A DNA stretch of 41,045 bases from contig NZ_JAIMIA010000035.1 in the NCBI RefSeq assembly GCF_019966495.1, forward strand, positions 1-41,045. The letters are read 5' to 3'. The stretch comes from Tateyamaria pelophila (GTDB lineage Bacteria > Pseudomonadota > Alphaproteobacteria > Rhodobacterales > Rhodobacteraceae). A program made the position numbers and the translations under genes. Below are positions 24,254 to 41,045 of this stretch, piece after piece (position 1 is the first letter of the stretch; each line of letters opens with the position of its first letter). The notes under the pieces are model-generated. The model searched no databases. It saw only the letters and a program-made list of their open reading frames with translations, and was not told the origin of the DNA.

Positions 24254-25306
24254 TCAGGCCCGCGCAAAGCCTTCGAAAAACGCTTCGAATTGGGGGCTGG
24301 ACCGTTCTGCCGCCTCAAGGATGTCCACCGCATCGGGGCTCAGCAGATCAGTGACGGGGCGGCGCATATGCGTCCAGTCGGCGCGTCGCTCTCCGAGAGA
24401 CAACAAAGCGACGGATATGGCGCGCAAGGCACTTTCACGTGCTGGAGGGCGATGAAACAGACAGCGCTGCCGCGGCACGGCCACCCCACTGTCATCTCGC
24501 CCCATCATCAGCATTGACCAGGTCGACACGAGATACTCATGGTAATCATCGACCAGCGGAGTCTTGTCGTCCACAGATACCTCAAACCCGCTCAGTCCGT
24601 GACGCACGGCATCCTCCCAAATCGGGTGAGGCACCCCGCCACCCTGACGCGTCGCCACGCAAATTTCAGCAAGCAAATCGAGATCTTGATCCAGGAACGC
24701 GACAATTCCTGCAAATTCGAGACTGCGCAAAGCCGTGTCATCCAACTGTGGATCCCGCCGCCCATATTCCGACAGATAAAACACGATATGGGTCAACTCA
24801 TAGGCCGCCTTCTTGTTGGGCAGCGCAAAAGTGGCGGGGCGTCCGATGAAGGCACGCAGGCGGTCGTTCAGGCCTTCATCTGCGGCCTCGTGCCTTACGC
24901 CGCGACGCGCCAGCAAACGACGCGCCTCGGCGCGTTGAAGATCGCTCAACTCCGCATCGGGTAGGCCCGATGACGCCACCCATTCGCAGGCCCGCGCCAT
25001 TGCATCACCCGGCATTCCAAGGTCTTCGAGGTCGAGACCAATGGAAAGCAGTAACCGATAATATTGCGGAAAGAAGCGCAGGCGGTCCACAAGGCTGTCG
25101 TAAAATGCCGCGTGGATTGCAAGGCCTTGTGATGGCACGGTCTGCCCGGAACACTCAAGGATATTGAGAAGTTCCGCATTTTCCTTCAGCCAGTAGACAT
25201 CCTCTTGCGTCCGGCGATTCCCGGCAAAGACCGTCAGCAGATCTCCGATGCGATCCGACAAGCGTTGGCGACGGGCCGGAGCATTCAATGCAATGATGTT
25301 GGACAT
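24254..25306 (-). CDS. Unrecognised 350-residue partner of the repeat protein
   Basis: I cannot assign a family. The 350-residue product begins MSNIIALNAPARRQRLSDRI and is rich in predicted helices, with no signal peptide, no membrane span and no catalytic motif that I can name. Features that might serve as landmarks are FFPQYYRLLLSIGLDLEDLG (about 83-102), ARRLLARRGVRHEA (about 128-141), PHPIWEDAVRHGLSGFEV (about 232-249) and VDDYHEYLVSTWSMLMMG (about 257-274). It follows the repeat-protein gene by 44 bases, with AAAGGA ahead of its ATG, so both are probably one transcript. It could bind, modify or deliver the repeat protein. It converges on erpA. Confidence 0.82.
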   Translation of the reverse strand: MSNIIALNAPARRQRLSDRIGDLLTVFAGNRRTQEDVYWLKENAELLNILECSGQTVPSQGLAIHAAFYDSLVDRLRFFPQYYRLLLSIGLDLEDLGMPGDAMARACEWVASSGLPDAELSDLQRAEARRLLARRGVRHEAADEGLNDRLRAFIGRPATFALPNKKAAYELTHIVFYLSEYGRRDPQLDDTALRSLEFAGIVAFLDQDLDLLAEICVATRQGGGVPHPIWEDAVRHGLSGFEVSVDDKTPLVDDYHEYLVSTWSMLMMGRDDSGVAVPRQRCLFHRPPARESALRAISVALLSLGERRADWTHMRRPVTDLLSPDAVDILEAAERSSPQFEAFFEGFARA

Positions 25307-25350
25307 GCCTGTTTTCCTTTGTCTATGCACTGCGCGCCCCACCCACAGGC

Positions 25351-25629
25351 TCAGGAGCCCGAAGAAAACAAACCGGTGACGTCGCCCGTGATCGACTTGG
25401 CCGCGCGTGACGCAGACCCGGAGGAAAAAAGCCCCGTTGCGTCCCCGGCCCTTATGTCCGATGCGGTTGGCGCCGAGCCCGACGAAAACAACGCCGTCGC
25501 GTCCCCTGTCAGGCAGTCCGATGCGCTTGCGGTGCTCCCGGATGAAAACATGTCGACACATTCGCCGCCATGCATGGCAGCTGCCTCTGTTACATCGACA
25601 CTTGGGCTATATTTGGCTTGGGCAGTCAT
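25351..25629 (-). CDS. Repeat protein with 20-residue GDxTxLFSSGS units
   Basis: A 92-residue protein: a 21-residue leader (MTAQAKYSPSVDVTEAAAMH and a Gly), then three complete units of exactly 20 residues and a final 11-residue unit. Each unit begins G-(D/E), has L or M-F-S-S-G-S at positions 6-11, and ends with a variable tail; the last unit stops at FSSGS. Two cysteines occur in the first unit only. The ribosome site AAGGA precedes the ATG by nine bases. The FSSGS blocks use different synonymous codons in each unit, so the peptide is conserved and the gene is real. No signal peptide or membrane segment is seen. A multi-core precursor peptide, a repeated docking ligand for the downstream protein, or an assembly scaffold are all possible; none is shown. 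Confidence 0.85.
   Translation of the reverse strand: MTAQAKYSPSVDVTEAAAMHGGECVDMFSSGSTASASDCLTGDATALFSSGSAPTASDIRAGDATGLFSSGSASRAAKSITGDVTGLFSSGS
25354..25566 (-). repeat. Coding tandem repeat, 60-bp period, 3.5 units
   Basis: The DNA of the repeat protein has a strict 60-bp period. The four FSSGS segments read TTTTCATCCGGGAGC, TTTTCGTCGGGCTCG, TTTTCCTCCGGGTCT and TTTTCTTCGGGCTCC. The amino acids are the same, while the third positions of most codons differ and one serine uses AGC, so this is an old duplication under protein-level selection and not recent slippage. Confidence 0.85.
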
Positions 25630-25979
25630 ATTCGGAAGTCCTTTTCATCTCAAAGTTGAAGCGCGTAAAGGATTGCCCGCATAGGACGATCATTCCAAGA
25701 AAAATTCTCGAAAAGCGGGAAAGGCAGTGACTTATTCACATTAAGTACGGGCCGGAAGATTCTGTTGAACTTGCATGATCGTCCGGAAAAGGTGAGACGA
25801 AAATCTTTATCTACAGCGTCGTTGGACGTCGTGTATTTCAAATGGCCCTGTCCGGTTATGCAATTTTAAAGCGAATCACTTGGTCATAATATTCTTAACG
25901 TTGTATTTCCGGTATTGCTCTTGTTGCAGCGTTCAGGATCGTTCACACCGTAAAAGCGCAGGCCGAAAAAGGACACCAA
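25630..25979. promoter_or_regulatory. Divergent intergenic region between repeat protein and xthA
   Basis: A 350-base AT-richer gap that must hold the promoters of both divergent genes. No clear -35/-10 pair was found for either. It contains the 10-bp inverted repeat pair listed separately. No gene, tRNA or riboswitch-like structure was recognised. Confidence 0.4.
25684..25784. repeat. Widely spaced 10-bp inverted repeats upstream of repeat protein
   Basis: GGACGATCAT (25684-25693) and ATGATCGTCC (25775-25784) are perfect inverted copies separated by 81 bases. The nearer copy lies 55 bases upstream of the repeat-protein start, near where its promoter should be. They may be two sites for one regulator, acting by looping. 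Confidence 0.45.
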
Positions 25980-37195: not shown

Positions 37196-37551
37196 CCCAC
37201 GACCTGCGTAGATTTCGGCCGCGCGTCGGAGGTCGGAACATTCGGAATACAGACCGGCTCTTCAGCCTTCGTCCCTACGAATGCGTATACATCCCGCGCG
37301 GTCGGTCTGCGAAACCACAAATCTGAACATGTCGCAATTGAGACAGACAGGCCCGTTTGCGGCCTGCATCCTCTCGCTCATAAACGGAGCAACGACAGCG
37401 GAGAGGCTCTCGTGCAGGAAAGTCGCAGTAAAATCGCGCTCGTGACCCGAACCATCGGGGCAGACCGCGGTCGGGCCGCCCGCGGACGACCTTGAACGTC
37501 AGTGCGACAACAGTTGATTTCCCAGATGTTCAAACCCCGGATGCCCATGAC
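37196..37551. other. Gap between aminotransferase and MttB-family genes
   Basis: 356 bases without a supported gene. AGGCC and GGCCT (about 37350-37366) can form a small hairpin. No convincing promoter or known riboswitch was recognised. An in-frame TTG at 37492 could extend the downstream gene by 20 residues. Confidence 0.4.
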
Positions 37552-39093
37552 ATGAATGACCAAACCCCCCTGCGCTCTGGTGGTCGCGCCGCGCGCCGTG
37601 CGGCCCGCGCGGCCCCCCTTGCCGACCATTTGCGCCCCATACGTCCCGGTATGTCCGGCGGCACATACAACCCGCTCAGTGAACAGGATGTATTGCGAAT
37701 TCACGTCGCGGCGCTCGATGCGCTGGAAAACATCGGCCTCGCCGACGCTCCCGACAGCGGCGTGGCCTACCTCACGGGTGCCGGCGCAATACAAGGCGAA
37801 GACGGTCGCATCCGGTTTCCGCGCGCGTTGGTCGAAGACACGATCGCCAAGGCGAACCGTAGCCTGACATTGCATGCGCGCAACCCGGTCCATGATCTGG
37901 AACTGTCGGGATCACGGGTCCACTACGGCACGGCGGGCGCTGCGGTACATCTGGTCGAAGCCAACGGACGCGCATACCGCGAATGCGGTGTGCAGGATTT
38001 GCACGACGCCGCTCGGATCTGCGACGTGCTCGACAATATCCATTTCGTCCAGCGCCCAATGGTATGCCGGGACATTTCAGACAATCTCGAAATGGATTAC
38101 AATTCGATCTACGCCTGCGTTTCGGGCACCACCAAACATGTCGGCACCAGTTTTTCAGAACCGCAGCACGTGGCCCGGTCCATGGAATTGCTGCACATGA
38201 TTGCGGGCGGGGAAGACAAATGGCGCGAACGGCCTTTTGTGAGCAACTCGAACTGCTTCGTGGTGCCGCCGATGAAATTCGCCACCGAATCCTGTTTGGT
38301 AATGGAAGAATGTATCAAATACGGCATGCCGGTCTTGCTTCTTTCGGCGGGTATGTCGGGTGCCACGGCCCCGTCTACCATCGCAGGCGCGATCGTGCAG
38401 GCAGTCGCGGAGTGTCTGGCCGGGTTGGTCTACGTCAACGCCGTCAAACCGGGCGCGCCCGCGATCTTTGGCACATGGCCCTTTGGGCTGGACCTGCGCA
38501 CAGGCGCAATGACAGGCGGGTCTGGCGAGCAGGCACTGCTGACCGCCGGCTGCGCCCAGATGCACCGGTTCTATGACCTTCCGGGTGGGGCCGCCGCCGG
38601 GATTGCGGACAGTAAGCTGCCGGATATGCAGGCAGGATGGGAGCAAATGTGTTCGAACGTCATGGCCGGACTGGCCGGGCTGAACATGGTCTATGAAGCA
38701 GCTGGCATGCACGCCTCCCTGTTGGGCTTCTGCCACGAATCCCTGATCATGGGCGACGATATCATCGGTCAGGCCCTGCGCTGCGTGCGCGGCATCGAAG
38801 TGAACGACGAAACGCTGGCGCTGGATCAAATGGCGGACGTGACCATGAATGGCCCCGGCCACTATCTGGGCACGGGTCAAACCCTCAGCCGGATGCAAAC
38901 CGATTGCGTGTATCCCAAGATGGGGGATCGGACTTCCCCCAAGGAGTGGGCGGAACTGGACAAACCCGATCTGGTCGCCAAGGCCACGGCCCGCAAGGAA
39001 GAAATCCTTGCCGACCGCCCTGCAGCCAGCCTCGATCCGTCCCTGGACGCAGCCATTCGGGCCAAGTTCAACATCCACCTGCCACAGCGTTAA
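37552..39093 (+). CDS. Trimethylamine methyltransferase family protein (MttB superfamily, no pyrrolysine)
   Basis: A 513-residue member of the MttB superfamily, with YNPLSEQDVLRIHVAALDALENIG at the N-terminus, QRPMVCRDIS and CLVMEECIKYGMPVLLLSAGMSG-like barrel elements, and a C-terminal GPGHYLGTGQTLSRMQTDCVYP. The frame has no internal stop, so it lacks the amber-encoded pyrrolysine of true trimethylamine methyltransferase. Non-Pyl members demethylate quaternary amines such as glycine betaine, carnitine or proline betaine by passing the methyl group to a corrinoid protein. No corrinoid protein or reactivating enzyme is encoded next to it. The ATG at 37552 is chosen; a ribosome site is weak. 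Confidence 0.88.
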   Translation: MNDQTPLRSGGRAARRAARAAPLADHLRPIRPGMSGGTYNPLSEQDVLRIHVAALDALENIGLADAPDSGVAYLTGAGAIQGEDGRIRFPRALVEDTIAKANRSLTLHARNPVHDLELSGSRVHYGTAGAAVHLVEANGRAYRECGVQDLHDAARICDVLDNIHFVQRPMVCRDISDNLEMDYNSIYACVSGTTKHVGTSFSEPQHVARSMELLHMIAGGEDKWRERPFVSNSNCFVVPPMKFATESCLVMEECIKYGMPVLLLSAGMSGATAPSTIAGAIVQAVAECLAGLVYVNAVKPGAPAIFGTWPFGLDLRTGAMTGGSGEQALLTAGCAQMHRFYDLPGGAAAGIADSKLPDMQAGWEQMCSNVMAGLAGLNMVYEAAGMHASLLGFCHESLIMGDDIIGQALRCVRGIEVNDETLALDQMADVTMNGPGHYLGTGQTLSRMQTDCVYPKMGDRTSPKEWAELDKPDLVAKATARKEEILADRPAASLDPSLDAAIRAKFNIHLPQR

Positions 39094-40540: not shown

Positions 40541-40577
40541 ACCCGCATTCCCCAAGTAGATCTCTGATTTCGCTGTC

Positions 40578-40606
40578 TTGAACGTGATATTTTCTATATA
40601 TATCAT
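40578..40606 (+). promoter_or_regulatory. Transposase promoter in right IS copy
   Basis: TTGAAC and TATCAT are separated by 17 bases and end 29 bases before the transposase ATG. Same sequence as in the left copy. Confidence 0.45.
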
Positions 40607-40635
40607 GGCGTTGGTTGCTGCGGAGGATGTGTTTC

Positions 40636-41045
40636 ATGGATCACCCAGAGGGTGCGGGCTTGCAGCGGGCAGATCGTGTGGATTTTGACCCTCGCGTGCG
40701 GCTGGAATTCCGGGGCGCTCAGCTCAGTTCGGATGGCGGCCTTCTGGTGATGCGCGAGCTTGATGACGCGCTCGGTCTGTCCAATCTGGCGTCTGCTGCC
40801 CTGTGCGATAATCGCCGTGGCAAGAACACGATCCACCGGCTCGACGGGCTGTTTCGGCAATCGGTCTACGGCCGGTTGGCAGGATACGGGGACGTCAATG
40901 ACGCCGACCGTCTCGCGCTCGATCCCGTGATGCGCCAGGTTGTCGGTGGCCGTGCCGTCGATGCGCATGCCGCATCCACGTCGCAGATGGGCCGGTTCGA
41001 GACCGAGGGACTGGCGACCGCAGAGAACCGGGCGGCTCTGTCTGA
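40636..41045 (+). CDS. IS1380-family transposase, N-terminal part (runs off window)
   Basis: The frame starts at ATG 40636 after GGAGG (40622-40626) and encodes about 136 residues up to the window edge. After MDHPEGAGLQRADRVDFDPR comes the conserved FRGAQLSSDGGLLVMREL region, then CDNRRGKNTIHRLDGLFRQS and YGDVNDADRLALDP. This pattern fits the IS1380 family. The catalytic part is beyond the window. Confidence 0.82.
   Translation, partial: MDHPEGAGLQRADRVDFDPRVRLEFRGAQLSSDGGLLVMRELDDALGLSNLASAALCDNRRGKNTIHRLDGLFRQSVYGRLAGYGDVNDADRLALDPVMRQVVGGRAVDAHAASTSQMGRFETEGLATAENRAALS

Follow-up and report, generated by a model that had tools for sequence, protein, structure and literature searches.

What is the role of a small protein built almost entirely of repeats, and of the larger protein encoded directly behind it? 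This question is raised by a gene pair in a stretch of Tateyamaria pelophila DNA (contig NZ_JAIMIA010000035.1, positions 1 to 41,045), the whole of which, 41,045 nucleotides, we refer to as the window. The first gene (25351..25629, minus strand; relatives P0001-P0004) encodes a repeat protein of 92 residues and the second (24254..25306, minus strand) encodes a partner of 350 residues that belongs to the Pfam family DUF6902. We propose that the repeat protein serves as a precursor, in which a short leader is followed by four FSSGS cores of the same sequence, and that DUF6902 is its dedicated maturase, which would make the pair a minimal two-gene system of the ribosomally synthesised and post-translationally modified peptide (RiPP) type. 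We consider this precursor-maturase relationship very probable. The full explanation, in which the maturase epimerises each core, is in our view moderately probable.

The repeat protein starts with a leader (residues 1-21) followed by four units, the last of which finishes at its own core. The Phe of FSSGS is found at residues 28, 48, 68 and 88, a spacing of exactly 20 that occurs three times, and each FSSGS is preceded by G-[DE]-x3-[LM]. In the window translation the cores lie on the minus strand at 25534..25548 (core 1, residues 28-32), 25474..25488 (core 2, residues 48-52), 25414..25428 (core 3, residues 68-72) and 25354..25368 (core 4, residues 88-92, immediately ahead of the stop codon). 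From the stop codon to the DUF6902 start there are 44 bases. An earlier note on this DNA had described the same length, leader, 20-residue units and 44-base distance, and all were confirmed from the open reading frame (ORF) translation and coordinates.

The note had also read purifying selection from the synonymous codons of the four FSSGS blocks, and this was borne out by the codon counts. The Ser codons are TCA/TCC/AGC, TCG/TCG/TCG, TCC/TCC/TCT and TCT/TCG/TCC in the successive units, with GGG or GGC for Gly. When core positions 2-5 were compared over the six unit pairs, the 24 comparisons gave 20 codon differences and no residue difference. Of the 57 codon differences at the other positions from -8 to +12 (Gly -6 and the core Phe left out), 48 altered the residue. 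In Pfam and NCBIfam the window protein had no match at E <= 1. Assignment of relatives' repeat proteins to a named family was likewise rejected: ten were scanned and gave mostly weak matches below cut-off. Three exceeded a Pfam cut-off, namely PF04496 (39.6 bits against 25, L003), PF24900 (28.7 against 27, L011) and PF07016 (20.4 against 19.8, L077); we read these as repeat artefacts, as the families are unrelated and the first two contain no stretch that passes alone. A chance repeat was rejected too, since the unit frame recurs among relatives. The structure model of the repeat protein, built with five sequences, was of very low confidence (mean pLDDT, the predicted local distance difference test score, 37.8) and speaks neither for nor against an ordered protein.

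Co-occurrence of the two genes had been set beforehand as the test of the pairing, and it holds. We sampled 295 Rhodobacteraceae genomes, almost every one from a different genus, found DUF6902 in 82 of them and read one locus in each of the 82. A short repeat-protein gene, the putative precursor gene, stands beside the candidate modifying-enzyme gene, as expected of a RiPP system, at 79 of the 82 loci, upstream and on the same strand, mostly 30-110 base pairs away, with wider gaps of about 340 base pairs at L011 and 490 base pairs at L076. No repeat gene was read at three loci: L064, L080, which is a distant one (129 bits), and L081, where the sequence begins inside the gene. A profile of two neighbouring units (A1; 31 positions, 39 rows) matched 75 of the 295 genomes, every one belonging to the 82 with DUF6902, and none of the 213 negatives (Fisher p 1.7e-62), and the informative part of this result is the 0/213, A1 having been derived from 39 of the same loci. 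Seven DUF6902 genomes were missed by A1 (G039, G041, G099, G139, G264, G283 and G288), and in four of them (G041, G099, G264 and G283) divergent units could be seen by eye (YIAGL, MMCCS, MMSCS, LSPSC).

A second, named set (80 loci kept of 336 relatives, overlapping the first set of 82) contained repeats at every locus, 78 by pattern, L230 by reading and one via its twin in the first set; the counts of 79 and 80 come partly from translations read by eye. The relatives in this set are named as Rhodobacteraceae, as genera of that family (Paracoccaceae for some) or as unclassified Alphaproteobacteria. In a phylum-wide sample DUF6902 was present in 7 of 398 genomes, all Rhodobacteraceae, and a search of plasmids in PLSDB gave no DUF6902 match at E <= 0.01.

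If the repeat protein is a multi-core precursor, the frame of the unit should stay constant, and the cores should be alike within a species and different between species, which is less expected of a docking motif. The sequences agree with this pattern. The 79 loci have 39 majority 5-mers, the commonest being FSSGS (16), FTSWS (10), FTSGS (5) and FTSGL (4), and the rarer ones include FVSWS, FSSGA, FTTSM, FTTSC, FITSC, FSSCS and FCSAS. Among 72 precursors of the first set, core positions 2-5 were 99, 100, 97 and 98% identical within a precursor, values inflated by the choice of units for their likeness to the majority core, and 33, 69, 33 and 41% identical between precursors. Between precursors the least variable positions were Gly -6 with 97% identity, the Phe of the core with 89% and Pro +6 with 72%, so that a conserved G/F/P frame, the putative recognition segment, surrounds a core variable at positions 2-5. 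In a looser register (143 of 154 precursors) within-protein identity was 80-84% at core positions 2-5 versus 34-42% at the linker (+7 to +12). Codons of core positions 2-5 differed there in 54-65% of unit pairs, with a residue-changing share of 27-37% versus 77-82% at the linker. The frame that the earlier note had singled out is thus kept in relatives and under purifying selection.

The core turnover bears directly on a rival without covalent change, in which each unit of the repeat protein would bind one DUF6902 and the protein would act as a docking scaffold, a decoy or an inhibitor. Strict pairing, a conserved frame and several units would all fit such a protein. However, a fixed binding site should keep its central residues, and between species the core changes at positions 2, 4 and 5, whereas 69 columns of DUF6902 are invariant (85 rows, none below 54% identity to the first row). 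We therefore regard docking as quite unlikely, and of the two roles that the note had offered, the multi-core precursor is favoured and the docking scaffold is disfavoured. On a tree of DUF6902 the 5-mer requires 51 changes, where 300 shuffles never gave fewer than 55 and averaged 59; for the presence of Trp 6 changes suffice, against at least 12 and an average of 16 in the shuffles. Since both counts are below the shuffle minima, the cores, as judged from these sequences, track descent yet have been switched many times.

The number and spacing of the units speak to another rival, in which the repeat protein is structural or amyloid-like and DUF6902 is its chaperone. The mostly 20-21-residue length of the units and the identical residues in register are what such a protein would have. 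Against it, the spacing varies and reaches 28-30 residues in places, a signal peptide is not evident by eye, and while precursors range from 2 to about 20 units, a variation in number that the earlier note had proposed to look for, some species have two only. We judge this reading very unlikely. Two core types in one precursor were seen at L186 of Ruegeria pomeroyi SZCCDBG043, at L208 and L241 and in several Tateyamaria. At two loci (L008:2624-3286 and L014:875-1435) an extra mini-unit of 8-9 residues (VELFSSCS, VQMFTSGL) brings two cores close together.

We turn to the partner, in which the earlier note had recognised no nameable motif. This has to be corrected, as it matches Pfam DUF6902 (PF21843) over residues 1-350 with 490.8 bits against a cut-off of 27, and also Pfam DUF6895 (PF21836) over residues 31-223 with 80.7 bits against a cut-off of 23.8. 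Among Pfam, NCBIfam, PADLOC and PHROGs, DUF6902 appears in Pfam only, as an entry of unknown function. Its conserved residues W39, Y169, H173, G182, D210, E214, Y255 and H256 align to invariant or nearly invariant columns of DUF6895, and nine DUF6895 rows show the same set; Y, H, G, D and E are common to both families throughout, and W and Y-H almost throughout. DUF6895 includes a lasso-peptide epimerase, going by the citation of Shi et al. (ACS Catal. 2026) in PMC13352647. The sole characterised relative that we found is thus, by that description, a peptide-modifying enzyme, in keeping with the expectation that the partner would not come from a well-characterised family lacking a peptide role. 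The predicted structure of DUF6902 is nearly all helical. A search for solved relatives returned none for A2 and A5, and only 2i71 (E 0.025) for A3.

The wider family also keeps company with short peptides. Eleven DUF6895 loci outside Rhodobacteraceae were read, three from Pseudomonadota genomes and eight from plasmid records, and a short peptide gene (62-143 residues) lies upstream at 8 of the 11. Seven of these eight peptides carry L-x-x-[SA]-[GN]-[IL]-[IVL]-[DN] near the start, a motif judged by inspection of one alignment, and an aromatic-rich stretch later (GPWFVLAG, GPWYAYH, GYVLAWDKYVLV). They come from Rhizobium (G398, P0125), two further Pseudomonadota, Kitasatospora, two Streptomyces and Pseudalkalibacillus, and in G474 and G635 the motif and the aromatic stretch occur twice per peptide gene. 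No short peptide was recognised at L152, L153 and L155, of which L152 and L155 lack a gene table. Because members of the DUF6895/DUF6902 superfamily often adjoin short peptides, a maturase role for DUF6902 is supported, as far as gene neighbourhoods can indicate it. Those DUF6895-adjacent peptides that were scanned had no match above cut-off in Pfam or NCBIfam, and the group possibly forms a larger unrecognised peptide class. Combinations of DUF6895 with short leader-motif peptides were noted at L145, L146, L147, L149, L150, L151 and L156, in Actinomycetota, Bacillota and Pseudomonadota. The eighth peptide, of 62 residues, differs from the seven motif-bearing ones; on Streptomyces fungicidicus plasmid p1 (L154:4833-7603) its gene is accompanied by a further gene, two tandem DUF6895 genes and an adjoining P450 gene.

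In the proposed mechanism the recognition segment, G-[DE]-x3-[LM] before and, in most relatives, x-P after, would present each core to the enzyme. DUF6902 would bind the conserved G-x5-F frame and tolerate change in the four residues behind Phe, by which the product could vary from species to species while the enzyme stays conserved. Going by the homologous lasso-peptide epimerase of DUF6895, the reaction would most likely be L-to-D epimerisation of each core, with catalysis by conserved residues such as His173, His256, Tyr169, Asp210 and Glu214. The likeliest target would be the core Phe or the Ser/Thr two residues on, because these are the most constant core positions. The peptides would then be released by a protease encoded elsewhere. 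Alternatively, the pair may be of the multi-core RiPP type with a different chemistry, DUF6902 cyclising or lipidating each core or modifying its Ser/Thr; toroid folds are also found in protein prenyltransferases and in lanthionine cyclases. We hold this to be rather unlikely.

Several points weigh against the precursor-maturase proposal or its epimerisation step. Two loci (L064 and L080) have DUF6902 with no visible repeat gene. The pair contains no protease or exporter gene, and its flanks are xth and an iscA-like gene. The toroid fold match lies within the range that the tool reports as common for helical proteins. The link between DUF6902 and lasso chemistry would run through homology only, and the gene annotations around the DUF6895 loci read name no lasso gene.

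When compared with known systems, the pair resembles the DUF6895 epimerase of Shi et al. in its homologous domain, in the common Y/H/G/D/E/W/Y-H positions and in a family that lies beside peptide genes. It differs in that the epimerase, going by its mention in PMC13352647, works in a lasso-peptide pathway, whereas here there is a tandem-repeat precursor with no other biosynthetic gene; the macrolactam synthetase and leader peptidase genes that mark a lasso peptide are absent from both flanks. DUF6902 is, moreover, a Pfam family separate from DUF6895 and confined to Rhodobacteraceae in these samples. MslH, a metal-dependent lasso-peptide epimerase, shows that cofactor-lean epimerisation of a ribosomal peptide is known, and it places histidines on either side of C-alpha; its alpha-beta-beta-alpha architecture, all as reported in PMC10406935, contrasts with the nearly all-helical fold predicted for DUF6902. 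Fungal KEX2-processed repeat proteins are also many-core peptide precursors with largely unknown functions, as PMC7329392 and PMC9769878 describe them. They are fungal and cut by KEX2, whereas the present pair is bacterial, has a dedicated partner gene and holds no protease gene. Multi-core RiPPs and peptide epimerases are already known kinds, and our searches of the open-licence literature gave no description of the repeat protein-DUF6902 pair. That the cores are homogenised and specific to the species suggests a role in signalling or recognition between strains. Should DUF6902 modify every core, this one conserved enzyme, with its many natural variants of the core, would offer a tool for introducing altered residues into peptides.

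Upstream of the precursor gene we found two DnaA-box-like sites on the minus strand. The first, TGTGAATAA (25732..25740), lies at -111 of the precursor ATG and has one mismatch to TGTGGATAA; the second, TGTAGATAA (25807..25815), lies at -186, 75 base pairs from the first, and also has one mismatch. The sequence TGTGNATAA or its complement, which we take to be the DnaA-box consensus, occurs within 350 base pairs upstream of the precursor ATG at 42 of the 68 loci that were usable in the first set, against a mean of 0.7 and a largest value of 4 in a mononucleotide shuffle that preserves base composition only, and at 53 of 65 usable loci among the 80 named ones. The sites cluster near -110 and -186, with spacings of 75-77 (27 pairs), 52-53 (8 pairs) and 22 base pairs (4 pairs), and at some loci the distal copy is inverted. 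Searched genome-wide in 149 family genomes, the exact pair was found in 7, once in each, at the peptide promoter; all seven are DUF6902-positive, and it was absent from 38 further DUF6902-positive genomes among the 149. A reversed control pattern gave one match. The window has six matches with at most one mismatch against a shuffle mean of 4.5, a number not above chance, so it is the conserved position that counts. Ownership by the xth promoter is disfavoured, because the sites keep an almost constant distance from the peptide ATG but a variable one from xth, and because the exact pair occurs solely at the peptide promoter. No sigma-70-like site was found between 24200 and 26000.

A broader reading, tentative and in our opinion doubtful, would see here a widespread undescribed class of bacterial RiPPs. 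In it a helical-toroid DUF6902 epimerase would write D-residues into tandem cores, the core would turn over like a code word, the DnaA-box-like pair would couple production to chromosome replication, and in three or more phyla DUF6895 would serve parallel systems whose peptides carry one or two cores.

The gene pair is flanked by a convergent IscA/ErpA-like gene and a divergent xth (exodeoxyribonuclease III). In the named loci this neighbourhood is kept, with xth in 73 of 74 testable cases and the iscA-like gene in 70 of 80. A phage family and a defence system were rejected as identities for the cassette after PHROGs and PADLOC searches gave no match, and an Rfam scan found no match inside it. 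Genome G181 has a second DUF6902 fragment, and G370 and G381 have weak DUF6895 matches. G242, a member of Rhodobacteraceae that lacks DUF6902, has a short DUF6895-like ORF (L099:7461-8108, 215 residues, 39.9 bits), perhaps a remnant.

Elsewhere in the window, the two ends (1-505 and 40541-41045) form one perfect 505-base inverted repeat; both termini of the contig are probably copies of a repeated element. An Rfam match to PYLIS_3, the pyrrolysine insertion sequence of mttB, was found at 38602-38701 (45.1 bits), inside the ORF 37492-39093. Because this 533-codon ORF runs uninterrupted across the match, it is probably a sense-codon relative of mttB.
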